44,819 nucleotides of DNA, taken from positions 1 through 44,819 of the forward strand of contig JAIBCK010000020.1 of the NCBI GenBank assembly GCA_019694215.1, given 5' to 3'. The notes beneath the pieces are model-generated. The model made no database searches and had not been told where the DNA came from. It saw nothing but the letters and a program-made list of their open reading frames with translations. Below, piece after piece: positions 17,669 through 32,825 of this stretch (positions are counted from its first letter, which is position 1; every line of letters begins with the position of its first letter). The stretch is from Thermoflexales bacterium. GTDB lineage: Bacteria; Chloroflexota; Anaerolineae; J036; Brachytrichaceae. Position numbers and translations under genes: made by a program.

Positions 17669-18928
17669 ATGAGCAACGCCGTCGAATTCATCAACGTCTC
17701 CAAGCGCTTCCACATGGAGCGGGACCGCCCGCGCTCCTTTCAGGACGTCGTGGTCTCGGCTTTTCGGCCGCGCCGACGGATGCCAGACGATCAGGACTTC
17801 TGGGCGCTGCGGGACGTGAGCTTTGAAGTCCCGAAGGGCGCGACGATGGGGTTGATCGGGCCGAATGGGTCGGGCAAGAGCACCTCGCTCAAGCTGATTT
17901 CCAGGATCCTGACCGCGACCACGGGCGAAGTCGTGGTCAATGGCGCGGTGACGGCGCTGCTGGAGTTGGGCGCGGGTTTTCATCCCGAGCTGTCCGGGCG
18001 CGACAACATTTTCCTGAACGGCGCATTGATGGGGATGTCGCGCCGCGAGGTACAACGCAAGGTACAGGGCATCATCGACTTCGCCGAGATCGGCGACTTC
18101 ATCGATGTGCCGGTCAAACTGTATTCGAGCGGGATGTATGTGCGGCTCGGCTTCGCCGCGGCGGTCAGCCTGAACCCGGAGATTCTCCTCGTCGACGAGG
18201 TGCTGGCGGTGGGGGATGCGGCCTTCCAGCACAAGTGCATGCGGCGGATCGGCGAACTGCGCCGGAGCGGGATCTCGATCCTGCTGGTCTCGCACGATCT
18301 CGGCGCGATCCAGACGCTGTGTCAGCAGGCGATCTGGTTTGACAACAATATCGTGCGCGTGGTGGGCAAGCCCACCGATGTCGCAATGGCCTATCTCAGC
18401 AAGGTGGCCGAGACTGAATCCGATCGGCAGGTGGCTGAGGATGCCTCAGCGCCGCCGCCTGCCGGCGACAAGCGACAGTGGGGGAGTGGCGAGGTCGAGC
18501 TGCTCGGGGTCGACTTTGTGGATGCGTTTGGTGCGCCGCGCAAGACCTTTCTGACCGGTGCCGAGATGAACATCCGGGTGCGCTACCGGGCGCGCAAGCG
18601 GGTCGAGGATCCGATCTTCGGGTTGGCCATCCACAGCGAGCAGGGCGTGCACATCTGTGGTCCGAACACCAGCTTCTCGGATTTCTCACTCGAGTTTGTC
18701 GAGGGCGAGGGGGCAGTGGTCTACAAGATTCCCCGGCTGCCGCTGCTGGAAGGCAGCTATGTCGTCTCCGTGGCCGCGCACAACCGCGAGGACACGAAGA
18801 TGTACAGCTACCACGACCGCGTGTATCCCTTCCAGGTCTTCCCGGGCGCGACGCGCGAGCGGTATGGCGCGCTGACGATGTGGGGGGACTGGCTCACGGA
18901 GCCTGCGCCAGAGCGCGAGCCGCGCTGA
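17669..18928 (+). CDS. Polysaccharide ABC transporter ATPase, Wzt/TagH type with C-terminal glycan-binding domain
   Basis: This 419-residue ATPase has Walker A GPNGSGKST (about residue 67), the group's special signature YSSGMYVRLGFAAAV, Walker B ILLVDEVLAVGD, and switch His in LLVSHDL. After about residue 250 there is an acidic linker and a beta-rich C-terminal domain with the Wzt-type pattern RYRARKRVEDPIFGLAIH and GSYVVSVAAHN. In Wzt that domain recognises the finished end of an O-antigen chain before export. The partner permease Wzm is expected next door but is absent; the only ABC-2 permeases in the window are 16 kb away and of another subgroup. It heads the glycosyltransferase cluster. 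Confidence 0.93.
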   Translation: MSNAVEFINVSKRFHMERDRPRSFQDVVVSAFRPRRRMPDDQDFWALRDVSFEVPKGATMGLIGPNGSGKSTSLKLISRILTATTGEVVVNGAVTALLELGAGFHPELSGRDNIFLNGALMGMSRREVQRKVQGIIDFAEIGDFIDVPVKLYSSGMYVRLGFAAAVSLNPEILLVDEVLAVGDAAFQHKCMRRIGELRRSGISILLVSHDLGAIQTLCQQAIWFDNNIVRVVGKPTDVAMAYLSKVAETESDRQVAEDASAPPPAGDKRQWGSGEVELLGVDFVDAFGAPRKTFLTGAEMNIRVRYRARKRVEDPIFGLAIHSEQGVHICGPNTSFSDFSLEFVEGEGAVVYKIPRLPLLEGSYVVSVAAHNREDTKMYSYHDRVYPFQVFPGATRERYGALTMWGDWLTEPAPEREPR

Positions 18929-18931
18929 GGG

Positions 18932-18947
18932 CTGCCCGCGCGGGCAG
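18932..18947. terminator. Perfect GC palindrome between convergent genes
   Basis: CTGCCCGC followed directly by GCGGGCAG makes a 16-bp perfect palindrome in the 42-bp gap between two convergent stops. It could fold into a short, tight hairpin in either transcript. No T tract follows, so its role as a terminator is tentative. Confidence 0.4.
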
Positions 18948-18970
18948 ATGCCTTGCCCGCGCTCGATCCC

Positions 18971-20563
18971 TTATTTGAGGATCCACATCTCGATGGTCTC
19001 GTTGCCCTTTCTAAGCGTTTTCGTTGACGTGGGCGGTCCGTATAACGTCACAAGTTGTGCATCGGAGCAATTCACCCAGAACACCTTGTCGATCCCGTTG
19101 CGGTCGATCAGGATGAAATCGGGTGGCATCGAGAACAGGCTCTTTGTTCCGATGTAGGGCCAGGGTGCGCAATCAGAAACAGGAATGATGACGTCGTCGG
19201 CCTTCGTGAGAAAGGAAGTCGAGAACGAGTTCCAGTATCCGGAGTAGCCCACCTTGAGGTTATCTTGCTCGATGAGGGTGCTGAGCGCGTCGTAGTAGTC
19301 CATGCGGGGCGCAAAACGCTCCAAATTTTCCTCCACGCGCGTGAAGTTGATGATCAGGATGGGGAGGCATGCGACCAGGGTCAAGCGGGAGAAGGTTTTG
19401 CGATAGGGGAAGCGGGGTGCGAGCGCGCAAAACGTGCCGACGAAGATTGGCAATACGTTCAGATAGCGGGTAGAGGTGGGATCGCCTGCAAAATTGGTGC
19501 CCACATAGGCCGCGCAGGTCAACACAAACGAGGCGGTCACCAGAAGAAGGAAGAGCTCCTTTGACGTGCGCGCCGGCAGCCTTGCGTTCGTTCCACCGTA
19601 TCGGGCCACGGCGTGAAACAAGAGCCTGAGCGCGCCGGCGAGGGCCAGAAGCCCCATCAAGACTGTCAGGCCCTGGGCAATGGTGGAGACAGACAAGGAT
19701 CGGCCCCAGAACTCGGCGCCCAGAAAGTCCAACGTGCCGCGAGTGGCCAGGTCGACGGACCGCGCGAGCCCCTGATAAGTGTTCATCAGGAAGTCCGAAT
19801 TGGGCGCAATGTGAATCGGCGACTGGGGCCAGGTCTTGAAGAACGCCAGCGTGAGCAGCGCCAGTGCGGCTGACACAACGGTCACAATTGACACCCTCAG
19901 GCCACGCCTCCACATCTGGTTCGGCCCGTCACTGCCGCGCCGCAGCCACAACAGCGAGCCCAACCCAACGATGGGCAGGACAAAGCCCGTCAGGAAGAAC
20001 TCATCCGAGACGATCAGGGAATAGGTCAGCAAAGCAAGTGCCGGAAGGACCCACTTTCTCCAGCCAGGTTTGTCACTTGTGACGTAACGCACCGCGAGGA
20101 AGAACATCACATAGGCAAGCCCATGCTCGGCATTCCGCATGGTCGCGCTGCTGGTGACCATGAAGAAGTAGGTTGAAGTCATGAGCGGGACCGTGAAGAC
20201 GAGGAGTCGAATCGGCAACGAGCGATCCCGACGTTGGAAGGCGAAGACAATGGCCGCGATAGGGATCAGCCAGCCGAAGCCGAATACGAGATTCAACAGC
20301 GAATAGTACGGGTACGTATTGCCCAGGATCCGCAGCACCAGCAGCACGAAGGGGATCTTGTTGGCGAAGGTGTGTCCGGGCAGGTAGATCTCCTCATTGG
20401 CGCCGCCAAGATGGTCCAGGACATTGGGCAGGTAGTGCGCATCTGCATTGAATGCATAGGCGATGCCAGCGCGATAGAACAACAGCGCGAAGCCCGCCAG
20501 AATCGCCACGGCGAACAGCACAACGCCTACCTGCCGAAGCGTGTTGATAATTCGGCTGTTCAT
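18971..20563 (-). CDS. Polytopic membrane protein, putative GT-C fold glycosyltransferase
   Basis: The 530-residue product has about ten or eleven predicted transmembrane helices and a C-terminal soluble part of about 130 residues (from about 400). The first loop after helix 1 contains NADAHYLPNVLDH, where GT-C glycosyltransferases carry their catalytic acidic residue, and the overall layout is like GT39/ArnT-type or flippase-associated proteins. I do not recognise a specific family. The ATG at 20563 is used; a TTG directly before it is an alternative. The gene has clearly lower GC than its neighbours (32 G/C of 60 at 19201-19260). It is on the opposite strand to the cluster's main run. Confidence 0.6.
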   Translation of the reverse strand: MNSRIINTLRQVGVVLFAVAILAGFALLFYRAGIAYAFNADAHYLPNVLDHLGGANEEIYLPGHTFANKIPFVLLVLRILGNTYPYYSLLNLVFGFGWLIPIAAIVFAFQRRDRSLPIRLLVFTVPLMTSTYFFMVTSSATMRNAEHGLAYVMFFLAVRYVTSDKPGWRKWVLPALALLTYSLIVSDEFFLTGFVLPIVGLGSLLWLRRGSDGPNQMWRRGLRVSIVTVVSAALALLTLAFFKTWPQSPIHIAPNSDFLMNTYQGLARSVDLATRGTLDFLGAEFWGRSLSVSTIAQGLTVLMGLLALAGALRLLFHAVARYGGTNARLPARTSKELFLLLVTASFVLTCAAYVGTNFAGDPTSTRYLNVLPIFVGTFCALAPRFPYRKTFSRLTLVACLPILIINFTRVEENLERFAPRMDYYDALSTLIEQDNLKVGYSGYWNSFSTSFLTKADDVIIPVSDCAPWPYIGTKSLFSMPPDFILIDRNGIDKVFWVNCSDAQLVTLYGPPTSTKTLRKGNETIEMWILK

Positions 20564-20667
20564 CAAAGGTTGGGAGAGACACCCGGATGGAGATGGGCGA
20601 CGACTACGCCTCCATGCGATTTGTTCCCGTACCGATTCCGTCCGTCCCCTGTCCCTCCGGCGGGCGG

Positions 20668-20673
20668 ATTATA
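20668..20673 (-). promoter_or_regulatory. -10 hexamer of the polytopic membrane protein gene
   Basis: A consensus TATAAT on the minus strand predicts a start near 20661 and a leader of about 98 nt before the ATG at 20563. The -35 region (complement of 20691-20696) is weak. Confidence 0.45.
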
Positions 20674-20858
20674 GAAGGTTGCGCTGTTCCGCGGAAAGCG
20701 ACAACGCCAGGTTCGCGCGGAAAGTGATGGTGCATCGCGCCGGGCAGCGGAGGCTCCGCCGACCGCCCTTCCGCTCGGCTGGAGCAGGCAGTTCCCCGAG
20801 ACTGAACGCACGGACATGCCCGCCGCGCCGTGGGCCACGCGACGGCTTGGCCCTGTGG

Positions 20859-20864
20859 CACAAT
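20859..20864 (+). promoter_or_regulatory. Extended -10 of the GT2 gene, leaderless GTG start
   Basis: CACAAT is preceded by TGG, an extended -10. It ends 7 nt before the GTG at 20872, so the transcript should begin at or one base before the start codon. This decides the start of the gene. Confidence 0.55.
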
Positions 20865-20871
20865 CACCGTC

Positions 20872-21849
20872 GTGAGTGCGTCGGTCTCGTTGATCATCCC
20901 CACCTGGAACGGAGCCCCCTGGATCGACGATTGCCTCGCGACTGCGCTCGAACACGCACCTGCGGACACGGAGATCATCGTTGTGGACGACGTGTCGACC
21001 GATGACACCGTCGAGCGGGTGTCACGCTTTGTCGCAGACGGTCGTGTGAGGCTGATCGTCGCGCCAGAGAACCGCGGGTTCGCCCGAACCGTGAACCGTG
21101 GGTTGGCTGCTGCGCATGGGGATGTGCTCGTCATGCTCAACCAGGACACGCGGTCGACGCAGGATTGGCTGACACCCCTGCTGTCGGTGATGGCCGCGGA
21201 TCCGCGCATCGGGATCGTGGGCTGCCGGCTGCTCTACCCGGACGGTCGCGTCCAGCACGCGGGCGGGCGCATCGACGCACGCGGCGCGGGCTCGCACGAT
21301 CTCGTCGATCCACCGCTGGATGGGCTGGGCGTGGCGGATGTCGACTTCGTCACGGGGGCCGCGCTTGCGATCCGCCGGGACTGCTTGAATGAAATTGGCA
21401 CGTTGGACGAATCGTTTGGGCGCGGCTACTACGAGGATGTCGATCTGTGCTTCCGCGCAAGACGCGCCGGTTACCGGGTGGTGTACTGCCCGGCCGCCGA
21501 GCTCATCCACGCGGAGGCGTCCCTGTCGGCGAGCGCGAACATCGAAGGGATGGCCCGCTTTCAGAGCAATCGCTTGCGCTTCGTGATCAAGCACTTCGAC
21601 CCGGCCACGATACAGGCGGGCTTTCACACGGGGGAGAGGGCCTGGCTGAACGGCCTGGGCGTGGAGAGCAGCGCATTTGTCGCGGCCCATCACCGAAGCT
21701 ATGTCCGTAGCCTGCTCGATCTCGACGATCTGGTGCGATCGCGCATGTCGAATGGCGAGGATGACCCTCGTCCAACCGTCCAACGCGTGCTCATCGATCT
21801 GCGCGGCCTCGTTCCGCTCGGAGCGACCGCCGAACTTCACCGCACATGA
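20872..21849 (+). CDS. Glycosyltransferase family 2, rhamnosyltransferase-like
   Basis: The 325-residue product has the GT-A fold signs of GT2: VSLIIPTWNG at the start, IIVVDDVSTDDTVE for nucleotide-sugar binding, a DxD-equivalent in LVMLNQDTR, and YYEDVDLCFRARRAGYRV with the catalytic-base region. It belongs to the WbbL/RfbF-like inverting transferases that add a sugar to a lipid-linked glycan on the cytosolic face. The GTG at 20872 is chosen over an ATG 42 nt upstream because the family's first strand begins directly after it and an extended -10 lies 7 nt before it. Its stop overlaps the next start by 4 bp (ATGA). Confidence 0.9.
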   Translation: MSASVSLIIPTWNGAPWIDDCLATALEHAPADTEIIVVDDVSTDDTVERVSRFVADGRVRLIVAPENRGFARTVNRGLAAAHGDVLVMLNQDTRSTQDWLTPLLSVMAADPRIGIVGCRLLYPDGRVQHAGGRIDARGAGSHDLVDPPLDGLGVADVDFVTGAALAIRRDCLNEIGTLDESFGRGYYEDVDLCFRARRAGYRVVYCPAAELIHAEASLSASANIEGMARFQSNRLRFVIKHFDPATIQAGFHTGERAWLNGLGVESSAFVAAHHRSYVRSLLDLDDLVRSRMSNGEDDPRPTVQRVLIDLRGLVPLGATAELHRT

Positions 21850-22409
21850 CACCTCCCCCGTTTGTTCCGCCCCCCTTGCATGAATTTCAATTCGAATCCA
21901 GGGTGCCCATCCTTGGTCCGCTGATCTCGGGGGTGCGCCGCCTGTGGCACTCGATCGCCGGGCGATGGGCGCTGCGCTGGCTGGCCGGGCAACAGGAAGG
22001 AATCAACGCTGCCGTGGCCGAGCGGTTGAACGCCGCGGCGCAGGCGGGCCAGGTGCATGATTCCCGGATCGCGGAACTCGAGGCTCGCCAGCGCGCCCTC
22101 TTCGACACGCTGCGCACGCACATCGGACAGTATGAGACGGAGAAGGGACGCCTGGCGGCCAGTCACGCACAGCTAACGGATCTCATACACAGTCTTCAGC
22201 AGGAACGGGCCGGACAGCAGGCCGCGAACGCTGAAACGGCAACCCGCCTGGAGCAACGGCTCGATGCCCTTGCGGAGGCGGTCGCTGCGGATGCAACGCA
22301 TCTTGCCCAGCTGCAAACCGCGACCCAGTGTCATCTTCAGGAAATCGGCCAGGAGCTTGGCGAGATGGCGGGCCGAATTGGCGGACTGCGGCAGGAGGAC
22401 GCAGCCTGA
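21846..22409 (+). CDS. Coiled-coil protein of the glycosyltransferase cluster, function unknown
   Basis: The 187-residue product has a proline-rich start, a short amphipathic segment (about residues 18-55: RVPILGPLISGVRRLW then RWALRWLAGQQEGINAAV), and then about 120 residues of heptad-like helix rich in Ala, Gln, Leu and Glu. There is no transferase domain. The same amphipathic segment appears at the C-terminus of the GT4 protein encoded at 24880-26484. Such segments often precede or follow transferase domains in Chloroflexota and cyanobacteria, so I infer a scaffold or membrane-docking part that organises the transferases. It overlaps the GT2 gene by 4 bp and lies 4 bp before the next GT4 gene. 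Confidence 0.75.
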   Translation: MTPPPFVPPPLHEFQFESRVPILGPLISGVRRLWHSIAGRWALRWLAGQQEGINAAVAERLNAAAQAGQVHDSRIAELEARQRALFDTLRTHIGQYETEKGRLAASHAQLTDLIHSLQQERAGQQAANAETATRLEQRLDALAEAVAADATHLAQLQTATQCHLQEIGQELGEMAGRIGGLRQEDAA

Positions 22410-22413
22410 CGAG

Positions 22414-23649
22414 ATGCGCTCGCTGATGATGATGAACACCTTCCCGCCGTTCTACACGGGCGGCGCGGAGGTTGTTGCCTACCATGAGGCCCGGGGGTTG
22501 CGGGCGCGGGGCGTTGAGGTGAGCGCGCTCGTGCTGAACAATCGCCGCCCCAGCGCGGTGGATGAATGGTTTACGCTGGACGGCATTCCGATCCATCGCA
22601 TCCACACGCCGCCCGTCCGGCGGACGCACTGGCGGGACGCCTATGACCCTCGCATGTATCGCCATGCCCTCGCCGAGATCCGCAGGCTAAAACCCGATGT
22701 CGTGCATCTGCACAACATGTCAGCGGTGTCGCTCGCGCCGTATGTGGCGTGCCGGGTGGCGGGCATTCCGGTAGTCAACACGCTGCACGACTACTGGCTG
22801 TTGTGCACCAACAACATGCTGTTCGACGTGAACGAGAAGATCTGCTCCGGCGCCACTGGGCCGGCCTGCGGATCGTGCTGGCGCGTCTATGACCACTGGG
22901 CGGACATCCCGGGCCGCCGCCTCGTCTTTCGAACGTTGACCTCCAACGTCAAGCGGTTCACGTCTCCCAGCCAGAAGCTCATCGACCTGCACGTGACCGC
23001 AGGATACGCGCGCTCCCGATTCGTCCTGATTCCTTCAGGGTTGGACGAACGCGTCACCGAACCAAAGCACCCCGTGGTTCGACAGCTGATTGCCAGTGCC
23101 CCACGTCACAACAACGTCATTTATGCGGGTGGAGGGGTGGCCCCCAAGGGAGTCGCCACGCTCATCGAAGCCCTGCCGGTCCTCCGGGAACGCATCCCTG
23201 ACCTGCGCGTCGTCGTGGTCGGAGGCGGCGAGCGACACTTTGCAGCGCAACTCGCCCAGTATGAACCGATGGTTGTGCGCCTGGAGCGGGTTCCGTTCGG
23301 GGAGATGCGCGGTCTGTTTGCCGCGATGGACTTGACGTTGTCGCCGTCACTCTGGCACGACAACTCTCCGACCGTCATCTACGAGAGCCTGCAGATGGGC
23401 ACGCCGGTCGCCGGCGCGGCCGTGGGCGGCATTCCCGAGCTGATCAAGGAAGGCGAAACAGGCTATCTCTTTCCGGTCGGCGATGCCGCGACCCTCACCG
23501 AGCGTGTGGCCGCGCACTTCCAACGCACGCCCCTGGAACGCCGCCAGATGCGCCAGCGCTGTGTTGCCGATGCGCGCGAGAGACTTTCGCTCGACCTTCA
23601 CGTGGCGCGAATGATCGACACTTACCGCGACGTGATCGGGGGCCGTTGA
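22414..23649 (+). CDS. Glycosyltransferase family 4
   Basis: This 411-residue protein has the GT-B fold of retaining GT4 enzymes. The N-terminal acceptor half starts with NTFPPFYTGGAEVVAYHEA; the C-terminal donor half has VIYAGGGVAPKGVATLIEAL, SLWHDNSPTVIYESLQMGTPV and GGIPELIKEGETGYLFPVGD, where the Glu residues bind the nucleotide sugar. Several Cys residues (about 140-155, CSGATGPACGSCW) form a cluster reminiscent of a metal-binding insert in some GT4 members. The ATG at 22414 follows the previous stop by 4 nt; an AGGAGG lies 15 nt upstream, farther than ideal. It belongs to the plus-strand run of four transferase-related genes. Confidence 0.9.
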   Translation: MRSLMMMNTFPPFYTGGAEVVAYHEARGLRARGVEVSALVLNNRRPSAVDEWFTLDGIPIHRIHTPPVRRTHWRDAYDPRMYRHALAEIRRLKPDVVHLHNMSAVSLAPYVACRVAGIPVVNTLHDYWLLCTNNMLFDVNEKICSGATGPACGSCWRVYDHWADIPGRRLVFRTLTSNVKRFTSPSQKLIDLHVTAGYARSRFVLIPSGLDERVTEPKHPVVRQLIASAPRHNNVIYAGGGVAPKGVATLIEALPVLRERIPDLRVVVVGGGERHFAAQLAQYEPMVVRLERVPFGEMRGLFAAMDLTLSPSLWHDNSPTVIYESLQMGTPVAGAAVGGIPELIKEGETGYLFPVGDAATLTERVAAHFQRTPLERRQMRQRCVADARERLSLDLHVARMIDTYRDVIGGR

Positions 23650-23650
23650 C

Positions 23651-24880
23651 GTGCGCCTGCTCAACATCTCGCACCAGTACCCGCCGGCGCTGGGAGGAGC
23701 CGAGAAGCACCTCGCCGACATGAGCGAGGAACTCGTGATACGCGGCCATCACGTCGATGTGTACACGACGCGCTCCACGGACTATCGCTCCTGGGCAAAC
23801 ACGCTGCCCCGGTTTGAACAGCGCAACGGGGTGGGCGTTCACCGCTTCGACGCGTTCCAACGCCGGGAAGCCGGCTGGAAGATGATGAACCAGGGTTATG
23901 CGCGCTACTGGCAGGGGCGCAGGGGCCGGGACGCCGCGGCGATATTTCTGGGCAGTGGGCCGCTCAGTCCGGGGCTCTTTGTCGAGACGCTGCGCACCGC
24001 ACGCCGATACGATGTGGTGCATCTCAATCAGCTGCACTATTCGCACGCCCTGACGGGGTACCTCGCGGCGCGCGCCAGTCGAACCCCGATCATCCTGACG
24101 CCGCACCTGCACACTGAACAGCCCGTGACCTGGGACATCGGGTATTTGCGGCGGATCATCCTCGGCTGCGCCGCCATCATCGTGAACACCCGCGCGGAGC
24201 GCGAGCTGGTGCGTACGATTGGCTACACCGGACCGATTCTCATCGCGGGGGTGGGGATCGACCTCCAGGCCTATCCGGCGCGTGAGCGTCGCGCCGCCCG
24301 TCAGGCACTCGGCTTGCGGGAAAGCACCTTTGTCGTGCTGGCGCTGGGACGCAAGGCCGATTACAAGGGCCTGGACGTCACACTCGCGGCCATGAGGCGG
24401 CTTGCGCAGCGGCACCAGGACATCGCCCTTCTGGCGTATGGCGCGGAGACCGAAGCCTCGGCCGCGCTGTGGGCGGGCCCGGGCAACATGAGTTTCGTTG
24501 ATCGGCGCGGCGAGATAAGCAACGAAGATAAGCTGAATGCGTTGGCCGCCTGTGACGTCATGTGCATGCCGTCAACGGGCGAGTCGTTCGGAATCACCTA
24601 TGTCGAGGCATGGGCCTACGCGCGGCCGGTGATCGGGGCGCGCATTCGTGCGGTGTCTGAGCTCATCGATGATGGCAAGGACGGGTATCTGATCCCCCCG
24701 GGCGATGATGTCGCCCTGGAAGCGCGGCTCGAAGCGCTGCTCGCGGCAGCCGAGACCGGGCGCGTCCTGGGTGAAGCGGGATGGAAAAAGCTGACCCGCT
24801 GCTATACTCGCGCGCGCGTCGCGGATGTCTTCGAAAGCGCTTGCGCAATGGCCCGCCGACGCGGTGCAAATTCCCGCTGA
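23651..24880 (+). CDS. Glycosyltransferase family 4
   Basis: The 409-residue product starts from a GTG one base after the previous stop and has a standard GT4 layout: NISHQYPPALGGAEKHLADM in the acceptor domain, VVLALGRKADYKGLDVTLAA at the linker to the donor domain, and MPSTGESFGITYVEAWAYARPVI with RAVSELIDDGKDGYLIPPGD for nucleotide-sugar binding. Its stop shares one base with the next start (TGATG). It probably adds one sugar to the repeat unit made by this cluster. Donor and acceptor cannot be assigned from sequence. Confidence 0.92.
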   Translation: MRLLNISHQYPPALGGAEKHLADMSEELVIRGHHVDVYTTRSTDYRSWANTLPRFEQRNGVGVHRFDAFQRREAGWKMMNQGYARYWQGRRGRDAAAIFLGSGPLSPGLFVETLRTARRYDVVHLNQLHYSHALTGYLAARASRTPIILTPHLHTEQPVTWDIGYLRRIILGCAAIIVNTRAERELVRTIGYTGPILIAGVGIDLQAYPARERRAARQALGLRESTFVVLALGRKADYKGLDVTLAAMRRLAQRHQDIALLAYGAETEASAALWAGPGNMSFVDRRGEISNEDKLNALAACDVMCMPSTGESFGITYVEAWAYARPVIGARIRAVSELIDDGKDGYLIPPGDDVALEARLEALLAAAETGRVLGEAGWKKLTRCYTRARVADVFESACAMARRRGANSR

Positions 24881-26484
24881 TGCAAGTCTTCATCACGATC
24901 GCCAATCTCGTCGGGCATGATGCCATCGGTCAGTGCGTCATTCAACAGGCCCGAACCTTCCTGCGCCGCGGCGACCAGGTCACCATCGTGTGCGAGGTCG
25001 CGCCGGTGGCGGTCGATTCGGCCATCGCCGCCCTCGTTCGCGTCACCAATCACGCCCAGCTCTCGGCAAATCGGCTCGACGCGTTCTGGCGCGGCGACCT
25101 GTATGTCTTTCACTATCCCGGCCTGTACTCACTGATGGACACCCTGCCGCACCTCGACCGGGGCGCGGTGATCTTCTACTATCACAACGTCACGCCGCCC
25201 GAGTTGTGGGGCAACGATGAAGTGGGCGCGTGGTGCCGACGCAGCATCGATGCCATTGCCGGCTACGTGCGCTTTGCCGACCTGTGCGTGACCGACAGCG
25301 ACTTCAACACGCGGGACCTGATTGACAACCACCGCGCTGACCCGGAGCGCACCCTGACCCTGAGCCTGTCAATCCCGCTCGACCGGTTTGTGCCGGGCCC
25401 CCGCGATCCCGATTTGCTGACGCGATATGGCGCACTCGGGAAGCGCATCATCCTGTTTGTCGGACGGATGGCACCCAACAAGCGTGTCGATCTGCTGATC
25501 GAGGCGATGCCGCTCGTGCTGGCGCGCGTGCCGGACGCGCTGCTGCTGCTCGTCGGCGACGACCGCGGCAACGACACCTTCAAGCGCTATGTCAGCGGGA
25601 TGAAGGCGCGGGCGGCCGAGTTGGGCATCGGACGGCAGGTGCACTTCTCGGGCGTGGTTGACGACCTCCCTGCGCACATGCGGCTGGCCGATGTCTACGC
25701 CAGCGCCAGCCTGCATGAGGGGTTTGGCGTGCCCCTGGTGGAAGCCATGGCGTGCGGCACACCGGTTGTCGTCAGCAATGCAACGGCACACCCCTGGGTG
25801 CTTGGAGAGGCCGGTCTCTTGTGCGAGCCCGGGGATGCCCGTGACCTGGCCGACAAACTCATCGCGGTGCTGACCGACGATGCCCTGCACGGCACGCTGG
25901 TCAACCGCGGGCTTGCCCGGGCGCAGGACTTTGCCCCTGACCGCTATGATGCCGAGTGGGCGCGCATCATCAGCCGGGCCGTTGTGCATCTGCCGCGTCA
26001 ACCCTATCCCGACCTCATGGCGGCGCCGGCGCACTCCCTGCAGACGGTATTTGGCCGGCCCGCCCAGACGGCCGAACAACCCGCATCCGAGACCGGGGCG
26101 GAGAGCATGGCTGATGTACAGGCCACCCGCACGCGCCTGCGAGGGCACATCCTGCATCTCGACAACACCGCCGACGTGATGAAGCGCGGCTACGTTGTGC
26201 GCTCAAATGCCCCGCTGGTCGGGAAACTCATCGCCTGGATCCGCCGGAATCTCACCTCGCATCTTCGCGAACCGTATCTGGATCCGATGATCGAGAAGCA
26301 GGTCGCCTTCAACCACCATGTCAGCTACACGCTGCATCAGATGCTGGACGCGATGATGGCGATTCAGGCCCGCCTTCCCGCCGACGGCCGGTCGGATGAA
26401 CAGCAGCGCGCCCTCGCCCGCCTGGCCGATGACGTGGCGGCGTTGAAGGCGGCGGTCGACACCGCGAGTCCGTCGGCGGACTAG
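24880..26484 (+). CDS. Glycosyltransferase family 4 with C-terminal amphipathic/coiled extension
   Basis: The 534-residue product has a GT4 domain up to about residue 370 (HYPGLYSLMDTLPHL and YYHNVTPPELWG in the acceptor half; ILFVGRMAPNKRVDLLIEA, SASLHEGFGVPLVEAMACGTPVV in the donor half). A C-terminal extension of about 160 residues contains VVRSNAPLVGKLIAWIRRNL and LDPMIEKQVAFNHHVSYTLH, the same type of segment as in the small coiled-coil protein of the cluster. I start it at the ATG at 24880, which shares one base with the previous stop; a longer open frame upstream runs antiparallel to nothing but overlaps the previous gene by 100 bp. Its stop overlaps a convergent stop within CTAG. Confidence 0.9.
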   Translation: MQVFITIANLVGHDAIGQCVIQQARTFLRRGDQVTIVCEVAPVAVDSAIAALVRVTNHAQLSANRLDAFWRGDLYVFHYPGLYSLMDTLPHLDRGAVIFYYHNVTPPELWGNDEVGAWCRRSIDAIAGYVRFADLCVTDSDFNTRDLIDNHRADPERTLTLSLSIPLDRFVPGPRDPDLLTRYGALGKRIILFVGRMAPNKRVDLLIEAMPLVLARVPDALLLLVGDDRGNDTFKRYVSGMKARAAELGIGRQVHFSGVVDDLPAHMRLADVYASASLHEGFGVPLVEAMACGTPVVVSNATAHPWVLGEAGLLCEPGDARDLADKLIAVLTDDALHGTLVNRGLARAQDFAPDRYDAEWARIISRAVVHLPRQPYPDLMAAPAHSLQTVFGRPAQTAEQPASETGAESMADVQATRTRLRGHILHLDNTADVMKRGYVVRSNAPLVGKLIAWIRRNLTSHLREPYLDPMIEKQVAFNHHVSYTLHQMLDAMMAIQARLPADGRSDEQQRALARLADDVAALKAAVDTASPSAD

Positions 26485-27644
26485 CGCGTCACCCACGCCC
26501 ACAGCGCCCGGGTGCGGGCGTCAAAGGCCTCCAGCGTAAAGGCCGCGCTGCGCAGACGTGCGGCCGCCCCAAGGCGCTCGCGCAAGGGCGGATCGTCGAT
26601 CAAACGCAGGGACTGCTCCACCAGGGCCGCCGGGGTCTGCCAGTGCTGCCCATCCACACCATCGGTGACGATCTCGGCCGGCCCGCCCGCGCCGAAGACA
26701 ACCGGCACAGCCGCGGCGGTCATGGCCTCAACGATCGACATCCCGAAATGCTCGGCGCGGTCCGGATAACGCTGCAAGTCGACGCCATAGCCGGCGGCGT
26801 GCCAGTACAGCGCGGCCCGGCCGATCAAGCCGGTGATCTCATGGTGGCTCGGCGCAAAGCGCAGGTCGACGGGCAGCCCGGCGGCAAGCGCCTCGATGTG
26901 CCGGGCATAGCCGTGGTGCTCGTCTCCGGGCGTGATGCTGCCGGCCAGCACCAGCCGCCACGGCGCCCCCGACGGCAGGCGGGCAAGCAGCGCGCGAAAG
27001 GCCTCGATCAGCACATCGTGGCGCTTGTTGTGCCCGCCGACGAAGAAGCGCCCAACGTGCAGGATGGTCGGCGTCTTTGGCAGCGGTGCCACCGGATCAA
27101 TGGGCGGGTACAGAATTTCGGCGTCGCGGTGCCAGTAGTGCGTCGCCCAACGCTGCGAATAGGCGGAGTTCACCCAGACCGCGTCGTAGGCGGCCAGCGC
27201 CCGCACCTGCGCGCGCGTGGGCAGGACGCTCAAGCGCGCCCGCAGCGTCGGCGGCAGGGCGCGTCCAAGCCGCGCGACGCGCAGTACCGAGCCCGCCCCC
27301 CAGCGCATGCGCCCCCCCGCCGAGAGATCGATCCCGGTGGGGAAGAAACTGAGGAAGACAGAGCGTTTTGCGCGCGGGTGAATGAAGCGACCCTGCGCGG
27401 CGTTGATGAAGCCGTCCAGCCCGGCGGTCCGGGCGCTGATGGCGGCATCGTCGTCGGGCACGCCGACCAGCCGGATGCGCTCGAGCGGGACGTTCCAGCG
27501 CGCCCGCAGCGCCTCTGGATCGACCTGCCCGGTGTGCCACATCTCGACGTCGTTCTGCCCGGCCAGGGCGATGGCCGCGCGCAACGCATGACGCCCACCA
27601 CCGCCGAAATTGCCGAGGCGGCTCTCAAATACGGCGATGGTCAT
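26481..27644 (-). CDS. Glycosyltransferase family 4 (ALG11-like donor domain)
   Basis: This 387-residue protein has a clear GT4 donor half: TILHVGRFFVGGHNKRHDVLIEAF, YWHAAGYG, EHFGMSIVEAMTAAAVPVVF and GGPAEIVTDGVDGQHW. The motif YWHAAGYG followed by EHFGMSIVEAM resembles the eukaryotic ALG11-type group rather than the other GT4 genes here. The N-terminal half is more divergent, starting FESRLGNFGGGGRHAL. Its stop codon is shared with the convergent GT4 gene through the tetranucleotide CTAG (26481-26484), leaving no room for a terminator between the two operons. Its start overlaps the stop of the next upstream gene by 4 bp. Confidence 0.88.
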   Translation of the reverse strand: MTIAVFESRLGNFGGGGRHALRAAIALAGQNDVEMWHTGQVDPEALRARWNVPLERIRLVGVPDDDAAISARTAGLDGFINAAQGRFIHPRAKRSVFLSFFPTGIDLSAGGRMRWGAGSVLRVARLGRALPPTLRARLSVLPTRAQVRALAAYDAVWVNSAYSQRWATHYWHRDAEILYPPIDPVAPLPKTPTILHVGRFFVGGHNKRHDVLIEAFRALLARLPSGAPWRLVLAGSITPGDEHHGYARHIEALAAGLPVDLRFAPSHHEITGLIGRAALYWHAAGYGVDLQRYPDRAEHFGMSIVEAMTAAAVPVVFGAGGPAEIVTDGVDGQHWQTPAALVEQSLRLIDDPPLRERLGAAARLRSAAFTLEAFDARTRALWAWVTR

Positions 27645-28726
27645 GGCTGCCCCGTGATCGCCCGCAGCTCACGCAGCAGGGTGGCGGCGACGACCGCGCG
27701 GGAATGCGCGGCGAGGCGGTCGGGTTGGCGGCGCAACAGCGCCGCGCGTGCGGGCTCGTCGGTCAGCAGGAGGTGCACGCCCTCGGCCAGCGCGGCGGGC
27801 TCGGGGCGCGCGATGAGCAAGCCCGCCCCCCGCACCGCCTCGGGGACGGCGGCGCAGGCCCGCGCCACGATGGGCAGGCCAAAGGCCATGGCCTCGACGA
27901 GCGGGATGCCAAAGCCCTCGTGTTCGCTCGCGGAGACGAAGACATCGGCGGCGGCATACCATCCGCCAAAGCCCTCATCGAAGCCGGGCTGTCCGGCGAA
28001 GACGACCTGCTGCGCGCCGCTGCGGGCGACGTGGTAGTCCAGCTCGCTGTGATAGGCGCGGTTGCCGTGCGCCGCGCCCACGAGCAGGAGGCGGCTGTTG
28101 GGCTGATGCCGGCGCTGGTAGTCGGCAAAGGCCGTGATGAGGTCGTCCTGGCGCTTGTTCGGCGCGAGCCGGCCAACGAACAGCCAGTTCGTCCAACGCT
28201 CATTGTTGATTATCCGTGGGTGGCGCTGCTGGATGGCGCGCCCCGCCGGCGAGGCCGCCGAGCGGCGCAGGCCGTCGGCGTCGACCCAGGGCGGGATGAC
28301 GCGCGGGTCGCGGAAGCCCATCGCGAGCAGTTCGCCGCGGTTGAAGTGCGAATCGGTGAGTGCGGGCTGGGCGCCGAAGCGCGCCTCCTCGACCCGCCCC
28401 CGCTCCAGCCGTCCGGCCATGTCGGCCGAATAGCGCTGGAAGAAGCGCCCGGGCGTGACGTTGTGGTCGTGCAGGATCACCCGGTCACCCAGCCGCTCCG
28501 CGATGGCCGTGGCCGCCGAGGCGTTGCCGTAGTGATAGATCAGCCAATCGTCGGGGCCAAGCCGCAGGTCGCGGGCGTCGAGCCCCCCCGGCGCCCGCGC
28601 ATCGTGCGAGAGTGTGTAGATGTGGCTGTCGCGCTGGCCGGCCTCGCGCAGGATGGCCTGATACAGCCGGGCGATGTTGCCGATGGCGTCGTGGGCGGAC
28701 AGCGCTGCGACCAGTTGGTGGATCAT
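27641..28726 (-). CDS. Glycosyltransferase family 4
   Basis: The 361-residue product has DDWLIYHYGNAS and VILHDHNVTPGRFF in the acceptor half, LFVGRLAPNKRQDDLITAF at the domain junction, and SASEHEGFGIPLVEAMAFGLPIV in the donor half. The phrase YHYG...HNVTP also occurs in the GT4 protein at 24880-26484 (YHNVTPPE), so the two are probably paralogues that use related acceptors. It overlaps the small coiled-coil gene upstream and the GT4 gene downstream by 4 bp each, so the three are translationally coupled in one minus-strand operon. Confidence 0.9.
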   Translation of the reverse strand: MIHQLVAALSAHDAIGNIARLYQAILREAGQRDSHIYTLSHDARAPGGLDARDLRLGPDDWLIYHYGNASAATAIAERLGDRVILHDHNVTPGRFFQRYSADMAGRLERGRVEEARFGAQPALTDSHFNRGELLAMGFRDPRVIPPWVDADGLRRSAASPAGRAIQQRHPRIINNERWTNWLFVGRLAPNKRQDDLITAFADYQRRHQPNSRLLLVGAAHGNRAYHSELDYHVARSGAQQVVFAGQPGFDEGFGGWYAAADVFVSASEHEGFGIPLVEAMAFGLPIVARACAAVPEAVRGAGLLIARPEPAALAEGVHLLLTDEPARAALLRRQPDRLAAHSRAVVAATLLRELRAITGQP

Positions 28727-29118
28727 GCCGGGCGGTCGTCGCCGGGCCCGCGCGCGGCGCGCAGCGCCGCCAGCGCGCGCTGCTGACGCACAACGATCTC
28801 ACGCAACGTCTCCAGCGCGGCGATTTGCTGGTGCTGGGCGGCTTCGAGCCGCGCCGCCAGGCCATTGGTGTAGAAGACGACCAGGGCGTGCAGCGGGCGT
28901 TTTAGCGCGCCAAGCGAAAACCGTCCGCCGGGGAGCTGCCGAAAGGCGGTCTCGGCCGAGAGGCCCAAGTCCTGGCTCAGGGCGCGGACCTGCGCGATGC
29001 GCACATCCAAATCAGCCAGCAGCGCCTCCGTGCTCTCCGGGGCGGCGGGACGCGCCGCAAGGGCGGCATCGATGCGCGCCGAAAGGGATTGTTGCACTGC
29101 GTCGTCGTCGTGGCCCAT
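28723..29118 (-). CDS. Small coiled-coil protein of the glycosyltransferase cluster
   Basis: The 131-residue product is mostly helix: heptad-like stretches at about residues 10-55 and 85-125 flank a short basic amphipathic middle (LPGGRFSLGALKRPLHALVVFYTNGL). There is no recognisable domain and no signal peptide. Its place just before two GT4 genes, with a 4-bp overlap, parallels the position of the other coiled-coil protein (21846-22409) among the plus-strand transferases. I infer a scaffold or membrane-association role but cannot name a family. A TATAAT on the minus strand lies about 20 nt before its ATG. Confidence 0.7.
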   Translation of the reverse strand: MGHDDDAVQQSLSARIDAALAARPAAPESTEALLADLDVRIAQVRALSQDLGLSAETAFRQLPGGRFSLGALKRPLHALVVFYTNGLAARLEAAQHQQIAALETLREIVVRQQRALAALRAARGPGDDRPA

Positions 29119-29120
29119 GA

Positions 29121-29132
29121 CACCCCGGGGTG
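29121..29132. promoter_or_regulatory. Perfect 12-bp palindrome at the start site of the coiled-coil/GT4 operon
   Basis: CACCCCGGGGTG lies between the predicted transcription start (about 29132) and the ATG at 29118. It could be an operator or an mRNA hairpin over the ribosome-binding region. In GC-rich DNA a 12-bp palindrome can arise by chance, so this is weak. Confidence 0.3.
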
Positions 29133-29138
29133 CGAAAG

Positions 29139-29144
29139 ATTATA
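29139..29144 (-). promoter_or_regulatory. -10 hexamer of the minus-strand GT operon
   Basis: A consensus TATAAT on the minus strand in the 47-bp gap before the coiled-coil gene predicts a start near 29132 and a leader of about 14 nt. No clear -35 box is seen. Confidence 0.5.
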
Positions 29145-29165
29145 GCGGCGCGGTCTGCGCGCCGA

Positions 29166-30521
29166 TCAGCGCTGCCGCAGCCAGCGCATGAAGCGGATGA
29201 AGCGCCCGCGTTCGTAGCCCGAGACAGTCTCCCGCAGGCGGGCGTTCTCGGCGCGCAGCGCGGGTTCGGCGGACGTTGCGTCCAACTGCAGGCCGGCCCG
29301 GCGGTCGGCCGCCTTGCGCGGGGCCAGGCAGTAGCGAATCAGCGGCGCCGCCACCCGCGGCCAGGCATAGTCGGCCTGCGCGCGGGCAAAGGCGCCCGCC
29401 AGCGACGCGCGCGGCACCTCCAGCCAACGCAGGATGGCGGCCGCGAGCGCGTCCGGGTCCGCTTCGGGCACGGCCTCGCCCAGGCCGTAGCGGGCGATGA
29501 CGGCGGCCGTCTCGTCGCCCGCCGTGGCCAGGGTGGGGACGCTCGCCCAGATGTAGCCGAGGGTGCGCGAGCGAAAGGCCAGGCGGGTCTCGTAGGTCTC
29601 GCGATGCAGCGACAGCGCCAGATCGCTTTCGAGCAGCACGGCCGGCCAGTCGGCGTAGGGGACCCAATCGCCAAACAAAACGACTCGATCCGCCAGCCCA
29701 AGCTCGACGGCCAGGGCGCGGGCGGCCTCCGCATGCGTGGGCGCGCCGGCGACCGCGGGGTTGGGATGGCGCGTGCCGGGGAAAACCAGCCGCACATCGT
29801 CGCGGACCGCCGCGACGCGCGCAAATGCGCGGATGGCGGTGAGCGGGTCCAGCCACGGCCACAGCCCGCCGCCCCACAACACGATCCGATCCCGCGCGCC
29901 GATGCCCGGCCACACGCCGCGCAGGACGGGCCGCGCGGCCTCGGGCGGCTGCGGATCGAGCCCCGAGGCGACGACATCGACCAGTCCGCGCAACGCAGGA
30001 TCCTCAGCGATGGTCAGGGGGTTGATGCGGCCCGCGCTTTCGAGCTGGCCCAGACACCAGTCACGCTGACGCTCGCTCGCGCACAGGTAGAAGTCGCCCA
30101 TCCGCCACTGCGCGCGCAGGTTGTTCATCCGCTCGCGCCACCAGCCAATCTGCTGGTCGAGCGGATGCGCGGCGACCATCGCCAGGCCTTCGGACAGCAT
30201 CGGATCGTAGGCATCGAGAATGAGCGCCGCGGGCAGGTCGGCCAGGGCCGGGAAATCCGTGGCGAGATCGGTGTTGAGGAGGATGGCGTCGCTGGCCCGG
30301 GCGAGGGGTTCGAGCGTTGGCCAATCGTTGCGCCGGTAGGCCACCACCGGGAAGCCCTCCGCGCTCAGGCGGGCGACAGGCGGGTTGGGGATGGCGAACG
30401 TGACCGCGACATGCGCGGCAAGCGTGCGGGCCAGGGCGAGATAGCGCAGGCCCGGCCCGGCCATGGCGTCGCCGACGACGTCATGCGAGACGACGAGGAT
30501 GCGTGGTCGGTCGGTGGGCAC
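29166..30521 (-). CDS. GT4-like glycosyltransferase with C-terminal coiled tail
   Basis: The 451-residue product has a GT-B layout: ILVVSHDVVGDAMAGPGLRYL at the N-terminus, IVLWGGGLWPWLDPLTAIRAF and VVLFGDWVPYADWPAVLLESD in the donor half, and SLHRETYETRLAFRSRTLGYIWAS near residue 330. In place of the usual GT4 EGFGLPxxE motif it has this SLH...AFRSR segment, so it is a divergent subgroup. The last 40 residues (LRAENARLRETVSGYERGRF, then IRFMRWLRQR) are a short coiled coil with a basic amphipathic end, as in many Chloroflexota glycan genes. It starts from a GTG whose -10 hexamer lies 6 nt upstream. Confidence 0.85.
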   Translation of the reverse strand: MPTDRPRILVVSHDVVGDAMAGPGLRYLALARTLAAHVAVTFAIPNPPVARLSAEGFPVVAYRRNDWPTLEPLARASDAILLNTDLATDFPALADLPAALILDAYDPMLSEGLAMVAAHPLDQQIGWWRERMNNLRAQWRMGDFYLCASERQRDWCLGQLESAGRINPLTIAEDPALRGLVDVVASGLDPQPPEAARPVLRGVWPGIGARDRIVLWGGGLWPWLDPLTAIRAFARVAAVRDDVRLVFPGTRHPNPAVAGAPTHAEAARALAVELGLADRVVLFGDWVPYADWPAVLLESDLALSLHRETYETRLAFRSRTLGYIWASVPTLATAGDETAAVIARYGLGEAVPEADPDALAAAILRWLEVPRASLAGAFARAQADYAWPRVAAPLIRYCLAPRKAADRRAGLQLDATSAEPALRAENARLRETVSGYERGRFIRFMRWLRQR

Positions 30522-30527
30522 GGGCGG

Positions 30528-30533
30528 ATTGTA
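30528..30533 (-). promoter_or_regulatory. -10 hexamer for leaderless GTG start at 30521
   Basis: TACAAT on the minus strand ends 6 nt before the GTG at 30521. The predicted start site is the G of the start codon itself. No Shine-Dalgarno precedes the gene. Confidence 0.5.
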
Positions 30534-30547
30534 GCCGCGGGGTCGGG

Positions 30548-31168
30548 TCAGGCGTAGTAGCCGCGATAAGGCTCGGGCAGCAACGCGGCGATGCGGCGCA
30601 TGAGCTGGTCGGTGGCCTCCTCGGCGCTGAGGGAGCGATCCAGCCGCAGGGCGGGCCCGAAGCGCGCCCCCACCTCGCCGCGGTGCCCACTGCGCAGGGC
30701 TGATGCGATCTTCTCGATCCCCCAGATCCCCATCGGGATGACCGGGACATCGGCGCGCTGCGCCAGCCAGGCCACGCCCGAGCGCGCCTTGATCATCATG
30801 CCGCTCTTGCTGCGGGTGCCCTCGGGTGACATGCCCAGGCTCTTGCCGCTCTTGAGCGCCTCGATCGCAGCCTTGAGGGCGGCGCGATCGGCCTCCGCCT
30901 GACGGACGTAGATCACCCCCGCCGCGGAAAACAGCCAGTGCAGGGGCAGGATCTTGCGTCGCTTGGCCGCCGCGAAGACCGTGATCTGCGGGCGGGGCGG
31001 GATGCAGGCCATGACGAAGGGCGGGTCGAAGTTGCTGAGGTGATTGACCGCCAGGATGAAGCCGGGCTCCTTCGGGAAGTGCTCGACACCTTCCAGCACG
31101 GTGGTGCGCGAGACGACGGCCATGAAGGCGCGGCAGGCCGTGTGGAGAAAGGGATACAGCGGTGCCAT
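30548..31168 (-). CDS. 1-acyl-sn-glycerol-3-phosphate acyltransferase family (PlsC-like)
   Basis: This 206-residue protein should acylate a lysophospholipid or related acceptor at the membrane. It has the four family blocks: catalytic NHLSNFD (about residue 46), a [16 protein letters not shown] region, [10 protein letters not shown] (about residue 123) for phosphate binding, and [10 protein letters not shown]. The length is usual for short PlsC proteins. I use the ATG at 31168, 4 nt after the upstream stop; an in-frame GTG at 31186 would overlap that gene. It is co-directional with the small coiled-coil gene, and the two probably share the promoter at 31701. Confidence 0.92.
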
Positions 31169-31172
31169 CTGT

Positions 31173-31670
31173 CTAGTTTGGCCCACGCAGGCGATCCATG
31201 CGCGCCTTCAAGCTCTTGTCGTCTTCGGCGGGCGGAGGCGGTGCAGACGACGGGGCGACTTGGGACGTTGTGCTGGCGCTGGCACCGTCGGCGGCCGCCT
31301 CGACGGCGACGCGGGTGGCCTCGGCACCGCGCTCGACGGCCTTCATGCTGGCGCGCATGTCGCGCTCGGCGCTCTCCAGCTGGTCGATCATGCGCTGGTT
31401 GCTGGCGATGGCGTCGCGGGTCTGCGCCGCCTGACCCAGGCGCGTGCGGGCGGCGTCATCATTGCCGGCCTTGACGGCGGCATCGACGCCGCCCTCCAGA
31501 CGCGCCAGCTCCTCCTGCAGGCGCTTGCGCGCCGCCTCGAGTTCCGCCCGGCGCAGGGCGATTTCACGTTGTGCGGCCGCCGGGTCTTCACCGCGCACGT
31601 GCGGCGCGCCGCGGCTGGCTCCGCGCAGGCGGGCGCGGGCGACGAGGAGGGCTTTTTCGATCAGGTTCAT
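31173..31670 (-). CDS. Coiled-coil protein, weakly PspA/IM30-like
   Basis: The 165-residue product starts [15 protein letters not shown], then has an [20 protein letters not shown] segment that resembles the PspA/IM30 start (a membrane-binding helix followed by an EDP motif), and a long predicted coiled coil to about residue 125. The tail is Ser/Pro-rich with a short basic end. Full PspA is about 220 residues, so this is shorter and the relation is tentative. The ATG at 31670 is chosen because the open frame before it runs antisense to the tgt gene. The PlsC-like gene follows 4 nt after its stop, which suggests a shared membrane-related role. Confidence 0.6.
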
Positions 31671-31699
31671 GGGTGTGCGGCAGGGGGGTGTGCCTCCAC

Positions 31700-31706
31700 T
31701 ATGATA
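31700..31706. promoter_or_regulatory. Overlapping divergent -10 hexamers (tgt / coiled-coil gene)
   Basis: The 7-bp stretch TATGATA contains TATGAT on the plus strand (31700-31705, 7 nt before the tgt ATG) and TATCAT on the minus strand (31701-31706, 30 nt before the ATG at 31670). One AT-rich element could therefore start both divergent transcripts. No -35 boxes are convincing. Confidence 0.5.
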
Positions 31707-31712
31707 GCTGGC

Positions 31713-32825
31713 ATGTTCGAATTCGAGTTGCGCGCCAGCGACGGGCGCGCGCGGGCCGGCATTTTCCGCGTCCCACACGGTGACATCCTCACCCCCGTCT
31801 TCATGCCGGTCGGCACGCAGGCGGCGGTGAAGGGCGTGACGCCGCGCGAGTTGGGCGAGATGGCCGCCAACGTCGTGCTGTCCAACACCTATCACCTGTA
31901 TCTGCGGCCCGGCGATGCGCTGGTGGCGCGACGCGGCGGGCTGCACCGCTTCATGGGCTGGCCGGGGCCGATGCTCACCGACAGCGGCGGCTTCCAGGTG
32001 TTCTCACTCAGTGCGATGCGCAAGATCGACGAACAGGGCGTGACCTTCAAGAGCCATCTGGACGGCAGCCTGCACCGCTTCACGCCCGAGAAGTCCATCA
32101 GCATCCAGGAGAACCTGGGGGCCGACATCATCATGGCTTTTGACGAGTGTCCGCCGCCCACCGATCGCGAATACGTGACCGAGTCGCTGGCCCGCACGCA
32201 TGCCTGGGCGCGGCGCTGCCGCGACGCGCACACCCGCGCCGACCAGGCGCTGTTTGGCATCGTTCAGGGCGGCATCTTTCAGGACCTGCGCGCGCGCTCG
32301 GCGCAGGCCATCATGGAGATCGGCTTTCCAGGTTATGCGATCGGCGGCCTGGCGGTCGGGGAGACCAAGGCCGAGATGTACCCCGTGCTGGCCTGGATGG
32401 ACGATCTGCTCCCGCGCGACAAGCCGCGCTATCTGATGGGCGTGGGTGATCCGCGCGACCTGCTGGAGGGCATCGCGCGCGGTGTCGATCTCTTTGACTG
32501 CGTGCTGCCCACGCGGCTGGCCCGCCACGCTGCCGCCTTCACGCACGATGGCCGCATCACGGTGACCAACCAGCGCTTCGCCGAGGATGATGGTCCGTTG
32601 GACGCCGAATGCGATTGCGCCACCTGCCAGCACTTCTCGCGCGCCTACCTCCGCCACCTGCTGCAGGCCGGCGAGCTGCTGGGCATGATGCTGATGAGCG
32701 TGCACAACCTGCGCTTCCTCATCCGGTTGGTGGCTGATGCGCGCGCGGCGATCTTCGAGCGCCGCTTCGAGGCCTTCGCTTCGGCATGGCTGGCGCGGTA
32801 TGCGGCGGGTGGGCGACGTGCATAG
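31713..32825 (+). CDS. tgt: Queuine/preQ1 tRNA-guanine transglycosylase
   Basis: The 370-residue enzyme exchanges guanine-34 in GUN-anticodon tRNAs for preQ1, a step of queuosine synthesis. Seen are the active-site DSGGFQVFSL (general-base Asp), the nucleophile region FDCVLPTRLARH, GGLAVGE for base recognition, and the zinc site CDCATC followed by a His about 25 residues later (LMSVHNL). Length is that of bacterial Tgt. The ATG at 31713 is preferred to upstream in-frame codons because the family begins MFEFELRASDGRARAG there and a -10 hexamer ends 7 nt before it. No other queuosine gene (queA, queC-F) is in the window. The next gene overlaps its end by 8 bp. Confidence 0.97.
   Translation: MFEFELRASDGRARAGIFRVPHGDILTPVFMPVGTQAAVKGVTPRELGEMAANVVLSNTYHLYLRPGDALVARRGGLHRFMGWPGPMLTDSGGFQVFSLSAMRKIDEQGVTFKSHLDGSLHRFTPEKSISIQENLGADIIMAFDECPPPTDREYVTESLARTHAWARRCRDAHTRADQALFGIVQGGIFQDLRARSAQAIMEIGFPGYAIGGLAVGETKAEMYPVLAWMDDLLPRDKPRYLMGVGDPRDLLEGIARGVDLFDCVLPTRLARHAAAFTHDGRITVTNQRFAEDDGPLDAECDCATCQHFSRAYLRHLLQAGELLGMMLMSVHNLRFLIRLVADARAAIFERRFEAFASAWLARYAAGGRRA

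Follow-up and report, generated by a model that had tools for sequence, protein, structure and literature searches.

Docking domains of polyketide and peptide synthases are short helical ends that occur in matching types and join separate enzymes in order. To our knowledge, the ordered action of separate soluble glycosyltransferases on one lipid-linked glycan is poorly understood. We describe here a segment of about 50 to 60 residues, found in a Thermoflexales bacterium and its relatives, that probably brings such enzymes together as a single assembly line making a surface glycan. The window analyzed is a whole contig (JAIBCK010000020.1, 44,819 nucleotides; G000:C31) of a 3.40-Mb genome in 184 contigs, and its glycan cluster carries the segment on two small stand-alone proteins, cc187 and cc131 (187 and 131 residues), and on one family GT4 glycosyltransferase. 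Unlike the synthases, these systems involve glycosyltransferases, and the putative tag is also supplied by stand-alone adaptors.

The closest described case is WbdD of E. coli O9a and K. pneumoniae O3, whose C-terminal region draws a mannosyltransferase, WbdA, to the membrane (Clarke et al. 2009, cited in an excerpt of PMC3482155); excerpts of two further papers describe there an amphipathic helix and a recruitment site (PMC11231755, PMC5082667). The likeness lies in a helical non-catalytic region, an ABC-exported glycan and the recruitment of a glycosyltransferase (PMC3482155, PMC11231755, both in part), and our cluster also contains the ABC-exporter ATPase Wzt with its Wzt_C domain (Pfam), as in WbdD-type systems. 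In WbdD, however, the region belongs to a single terminator enzyme, whereas here a segment with homologous copies recurs on several proteins of one cluster, in distinct types, fused or stand-alone. By analogy, the segment may work like the WbdD C terminus; we claim this functional likeness and not membership, because neither cc187 nor cc131 has a terminator domain (methyltransferase or kinase) in Pfam (E ≤ 0.001) or NCBIfam. The K. pneumoniae O4, O7 and O12 polymerases offer another parallel: functions fused in one serotype are split in another and held as complexes. Their common feature, however, is a coiled-coil ruler on the terminator, and the excerpt describes no shared tag on several transferases (PMC11231755). 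Our literature searches found no description of such a glycosyltransferase tag.

An earlier note on this DNA had proposed that the segment occurs in cc187, at the C terminus of the GT4 protein encoded at 24880-26484 and, in a looser version, in cc131; profile searches recovered all three. In cc187 (21846-22409, + strand) it spans residues 9-66 (21870-22043). Residues 1-65 of this protein, used as a query, found relatives in 17 of 60 genomes, its own counted; in the four loci inspected (L002, L003, L008 and L009) the match is the C terminus of a GT2 protein. We built profile A2 from 14 segments (cc187 and 13 relatives, from 14 of 18 loci; L013, L015, L016 and L017 were left out as gapped, near-duplicate or weak) and excluded the GT4 tail. 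Searched against the whole genome, it matched two places only at E ≤ 10: cc187 (1.3e-24, in the profile) and the GT4 tail at 26200-26349, + strand (8.9e-7, not in the profile). Pairwise comparison of these two segments also scored above shuffles (p = 0.001). Profile A12, made from 22 proteins of a related type (type C below) from other genomes and containing no window sequence, matched the GT4 tail (1.4e-6), cc131 (7.3e-6) and cc187 (2.8e-5), with the next match at E = 4.8. The cc131 match (28756-29061, within a gene at 28723-29118 on the − strand) reached 1.6e-8 among window open reading frames (ORFs), and cc131 as a lone query recovered a type-C protein (E = 9.8e-4, within L070:4376-4867). 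Compared directly with cc187 and the GT4 tail, cc131 did not rise above shuffles (p = 0.59 and 0.83), so its relationship is visible only through the family. These two whole-genome searches lead us to conclude, from sequence profiles, that the three segments are homologous rather than a chance resemblance and, in this genome, are confined to the glycan cluster: the 3.4-Mb genome holds exactly three copies, all at 21,870-29,061 of the window, of types A, B and C. A type-D match elsewhere (C35, E = 0.011) falls in an ORF that reads by eye as endonuclease III and was taken as chance.

The wider family falls into five sequence types. We fetched 60 regions from class-level matches, the first 20 picked for holding several copies, and an iterated profile collected 125 segments, two of them from the window; the best match in a reversed-sequence control had E = 1.7. 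Segments are reported as stop-to-stop ORFs found by hidden Markov models, hence with approximate starts. Assigned by best-scoring profile, 56 belong to type A (consensus FxSxxPxxGPLIAxxRxxWNxxxTRWYVRxLxxQQxxFN), 20 to type B (ADVMLRxYxVRSxxPxVGxLIAWxRRNLTSHLREPYLDPxxERQVxFN), 36 to type C (PLxGxLWQRxRxxAHxLVVFYVNxLAxxQxxFN), 10 to type D (WPPGxxxKxxAxxQKxxRRLLxWYIxPIVxQQNxxN) and 3 to type E. Within the class, 70 of 298 genomes match the segment and 31 have it in two or more copies, of which 21 have at least two copies within 20 kb on one contig; a mixed profile matched 73 of 400 genomes of the phylum. Two or more segments occur in 40 of the 60 regions, a count biased upward by the first 20, and in 20 of the 40 regions not so picked (L070-L109). 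Differing types are co-located, as in L052, where B, A, D and E share a stretch of about 6 kb.

The segment is uncatalogued in curated domain collections. No Pfam, NCBIfam or PHROGs model covers it, and neither cc187 nor cc131 has a family hit in Pfam (E ≤ 0.001) or above the NCBIfam cut-off. Among PDB sequences we found no match to the segment at E ≤ 1, a search that does not reach the WbdD recruitment region, since the solved part of that protein stops at residue 556 (excerpt of PMC3482155). Its carriers are diverse. By Pfam, type A is found on GT2 (25 of 56) and GT4 proteins (4 of 56); type B on GT4 (13 of 18) and on two or three methyltransferases; type C (37 carriers, cc131 counted) on three FkbM methyltransferases and three DUF4214 proteins; types D and E (13 carriers) on two GT2 proteins, one methyltransferase and one GT4. 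Beyond these, the carriers gave only generic or isolated matches at E ≤ 0.001 (SlyX, DUF7310, HetR_C, TRM5-TYW2, RfbT and similar). Many carriers stop soon after the segment, those of type D at 132-142 residues. Type A may form the C terminus of a GT2 protein, the N terminus of a GT4 protein (L086, L092, L093) or a protein of its own, as expected of a portable tag. Types B and A are naturally fused in one chain at L050:8477-9814 and L053:9241-10446, and lie on overlapping ORFs in L051 and L052. Many carriers of types C, D and E (for example in L071, L163 and L052) start with a short motif resembling DxEIDxExIMxxIRxxIxxRR or IDVAAILxxLRxxVRxRR, which may be a further contact site.

The segment keeps company with glycan genes, a point on which the earlier note had staked its proposal: in the relatives' regions, another GT2 or GT4 ORF lies within 5 kb of 112 of 123 segments and of 58 of 63 small stand-alone carriers. 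GT2 and GT4 density is 0.254 per kb in these regions against 0.015 per kb (51 per 3,404 kb) in the Thermoflexales genome itself, a 17-fold ratio that is a guide only, since the two densities come from different models and genomes. A GT4 gene comes directly after 30 of 32 small stand-alone type-C proteins, 21 of these 30 with a GGAE-like motif, and a glycosyltransferase gene directly after 12 of 24 stand-alone type-A proteins, including that of the window. For type D, we considered 71 named loci among the matches listed that have only type-D tags; in the 54 with at least 3 kb downstream, GT4 directly follows the stand-alone carrier in 49. In Herpetosiphon aurantiacus DSM 785 (L163), the gene of a 135-residue carrier meets a GT4 gene. 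A Wzt-like ATPase is encoded in 25 of the 60 regions, where all 55 segment entries share the strand of Wzt and type A is adjacent to it in ten.

A further regularity concerns how a glycosyltransferase comes by the segment. For GT4 enzymes, an own tag and an upstream carrier are mutually exclusive: a stand-alone carrier lies directly upstream of 0 of 15 tagged and 44 of 151 untagged GT4 ORFs (Fisher p = 0.012). Over all glycosyltransferase ORFs the counts are 0 of 42 and 45 of 174 (p = 2.6e-5). The window fits this pattern. GT4 24880-26484 bears its own tag; the untagged GT4 gene at 27641-28726 overlaps cc131; and the untagged GT2 gene overlaps cc187, whose segment is part of GT2 itself in several relatives. 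The claim that each transferase run has one stand-alone copy holds literally, with cc187 in the + run and cc131 in the − run. Moreover, in L050 and L114 the type-B tail is preceded by no more than the N-terminal half of a GT4 protein of this subfamily (E = 2.8e-13 and 5.5e-13; L053 is weak at 0.0016, and L051 and L052 gave no match); that the tail is kept where the catalytic half is gone argues for a role apart from catalysis.

Structure prediction and residue periodicity suggest what kind of element this may be. In the AlphaFold2 model of a GT2-type A fusion (L062, 22 alignment rows; predicted local distance difference test, pLDDT, 89.6; predicted template modeling score, pTM, 0.82), a globular GT2 part is followed by a low-confidence linker (residues 327-347) and a single helix (348-415, pLDDT about 74-86): the tag is modeled as a lone extended helix that a flexible linker joins to the enzyme. 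The model of a tandem type-D protein (29 alignment rows; pLDDT 77, pTM 0.64; A10 draws on 29 of 33 tandem proteins) shows in each half a short helix, a loop and a helix of 51-60 residues; a Foldseek search with this model returned no match at E ≤ 0.001. Hydrophobicity by alignment column has a period of about 3.7 (best 3.70-3.75, at the scan edge; p = 0.017 for A, 0.16 for B, 0.0004 for C and < 0.0002 for D). The amphipathic moment exceeds that of shuffles modestly (A, 0.516 vs 0.433; B, 0.478 vs 0.428). This suggests an amphipathic helix, for which packing on another helix and on lipid would both be compatible.

On balance, we lean towards the segment being a docking or adaptor helix that brings glycosyltransferases together, whether in cis or in trans. 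In this view the domain has a short N-terminal element, where P and G are conserved, and a long amphipathic helix, where the conserved residues are R, W/Y, Q and N. The domain would be carried in cis at the C terminus of GT2 proteins, as a GT4 tail, at the N terminus of some GT4 proteins and on some methyltransferases, or in trans, on a small free-standing adaptor with a gene coupled to that of an untagged glycosyltransferase. Copies of different types in one cluster may then pair through their helices and keep the transferases on the cytoplasmic side of the membrane, beside the Wzt/Wzm exporter. In the window, GT4 24880-26484 would dock in cis, GT2 would be served by cc187 and GT4 27641-28726 by cc131. 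The pairing between segments, the named partners, the location at Wzt and the contact with the membrane are what we infer.

Several observations weigh against this reading. With a period of about 3.7 rather than 3.5, the data do not establish the core as a heptad coiled coil of the classical kind. As many as 107 of 151 untagged GT4 ORFs have no upstream adaptor, so any docking is not universal, and no glycosyltransferase gene lies directly downstream of 12 of the 24 stand-alone type-A proteins. The exclusivity seen over all glycosyltransferases is in part confounded, since type A mostly comes as a fusion with GT2. Tandem type-D proteins show no clean stoichiometry with GT4 genes: the idea of one segment per downstream GT4 was dropped, since of 27 listed tandem carriers 5 have no GT4 gene after them, 11 have one and 11 have two.

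Other functions for such a helix have to be weighed. A membrane-binding amphipathic helix could anchor each carrier at the cytoplasmic face with no specific pairing of carriers, which we regard as unlikely. It would agree with the period near 3.7, with the moment above shuffles in types A, C and D, with a net positive charge that is strongest in D (+3.6) and with the membrane-associated amphipathic helix described for WbdD (excerpt of PMC11231755). A stand-alone protein holding the segment only would, however, be of no help to a glycosyltransferase unless the enzyme also bound to it; conserved mid-helix Q, Q and N and distinct co-occurring types are unneeded for lipid binding; and types A and B exceed shuffles only modestly. 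The recurrence of several homologous yet different types per cluster, the natural A-B fusions (L050, L053) and the presence of the tag in cis on enzymes speak against a plain self-association helix, forming homodimers or trimers, or a stabilizing co-folding partner of the adjacent enzyme, neither of which would join different transferases. That explanation is quite improbable in our estimate, even if Chloroflexus and Herpetosiphon relatives have tight carrier-GT4 gene pairs outside any larger tagged cluster and WbdD trimerizes via its helix (excerpt of PMC3482155).

We give very little credence to the idea that cc187-like proteins are glycan chain-length rulers like the WbdD coiled coil, with the segment as a foot at the membrane. 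A coil of about 120 residues is predicted behind the cc187 segment, extended coils mark such systems (excerpt of PMC11231755), and Wzt with Wzt_C in the window and Wzt-like ATPases in the relatives' regions would suit a ruler; but terminator domains are missing from cc187 and cc131, many carriers end shortly past the segment, and the segment sits on several enzymes of one cluster. Of these readings, docking agrees best with the cis/trans arrangement. The earlier note's picture of a docking system that gathers transferases thus stands in part: the association with glycan genes and the cis/trans pattern favor it, and one of the four elements it listed is foreign to the set.

The foreign element is the coiled tail of the GT4-like protein at 29166-30521 (− strand). 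Considered as a fourth copy, it was rejected: neither A2 nor A12 recovered it in the genome, and it has a different motif, ENARLRxxVxGYERGRFIRFMRWLR. Its conserved C-terminal tail, GYERGRFIRFMRWLR, recurs on eight ORFs, spread over six of the relatives' 60 regions (L050, L062, L066, L068, L072 and L104) and on none in the 80 named loci. As (E)xARLRxLVxGYERGRFIRxMRWLR, this second tail ends proteins of the same clusters, often just upstream of a type-A gene, and may be another interaction tail.

The stretch from 17.7 to 31.2 kb encodes Wzt with Wzt_C, one GT2, five clear GT4 proteins, the divergent GT4-like gene and the two small domain-less proteins, in dense packing. Wzt, an ATPase of an ABC glycan exporter with a carbohydrate-binding C-terminal domain, lies at 17669-18928 (+; Pfam ABC_tran 3.9e-19, Wzt_C 1e-28). 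The untagged GT2 (20830-21849, +; Glycos_transf_2 4e-28) overlaps the start of cc187 by ATGA, and is followed after cc187 by GT4 genes at 22414-23649 (+, likely start 22414; Glyco_trans_1_4 1.4e-22), 23651-24880 (+; Glycos_transf_1 2.1e-24) and 24880-26484 (+, tagged; Glyco_trans_1_4 1.8e-35). On the − strand, the GT4 genes at 26481-27644 (Glycos_transf_1 9.7e-21) and 27641-28726 (4.9e-27) overlap each other by ATGA, and the latter overlaps cc131 in the same way. Between Wzt and GT2, opposed to the glycan genes, an apparent membrane protein of 531 residues (18971-20566, −) has no Pfam match. A genome of the same genus (L191, G001:C121) has a Wzt-to-acyltransferase stretch with a different set of glycosyltransferases and a 188-residue type-C-like protein (E = 3e-13). 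The locus (compare window 17669-31946) looks like a variable surface-glycan cassette with conserved flanks.

The named type-D matches listed fall almost wholly within Chloroflexota. A scan of 84,980 species genomes with exact peptide patterns for type D gave at least 80 loci; among the matches listed, all but three titles name Chloroflexota groups. The exceptions are L128 ('Singulisphaera'), L140 ('Gracilibacteria') and L144 ('bacterium'); the proteins of L128 and L140 resemble Roseiflexaceae/Chloroflexales by eye, so that errors of binning or naming are likely for these two. Plasmid searches for spread beyond Chloroflexota gave chance-level matches or none. Type-D carriers of Chloroflexia are often tandem duplications in one protein, in at least 34 cases (34 of 80 listed; for example L118, L120-L123 and L130-L134).

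We may tentatively go further and imagine, as a possibility we would not bet on, a modular docking code in Chloroflexota, in which paralogous helix types A to E, carried in cis or supplied by adaptors, pair selectively and fix membership of the assembly at the exporter. If so, surface-glycan clusters could exchange enzymes by shuffling the tags, in the manner of synthase docking domains. A portable, recognizable tag would name the members of an assembly from sequence alone, give a function to many small hypothetical proteins of Chloroflexota and offer parts for engineering glycan assembly lines, and cultured strains such as H. aurantiacus DSM 785 put the idea within experimental reach.

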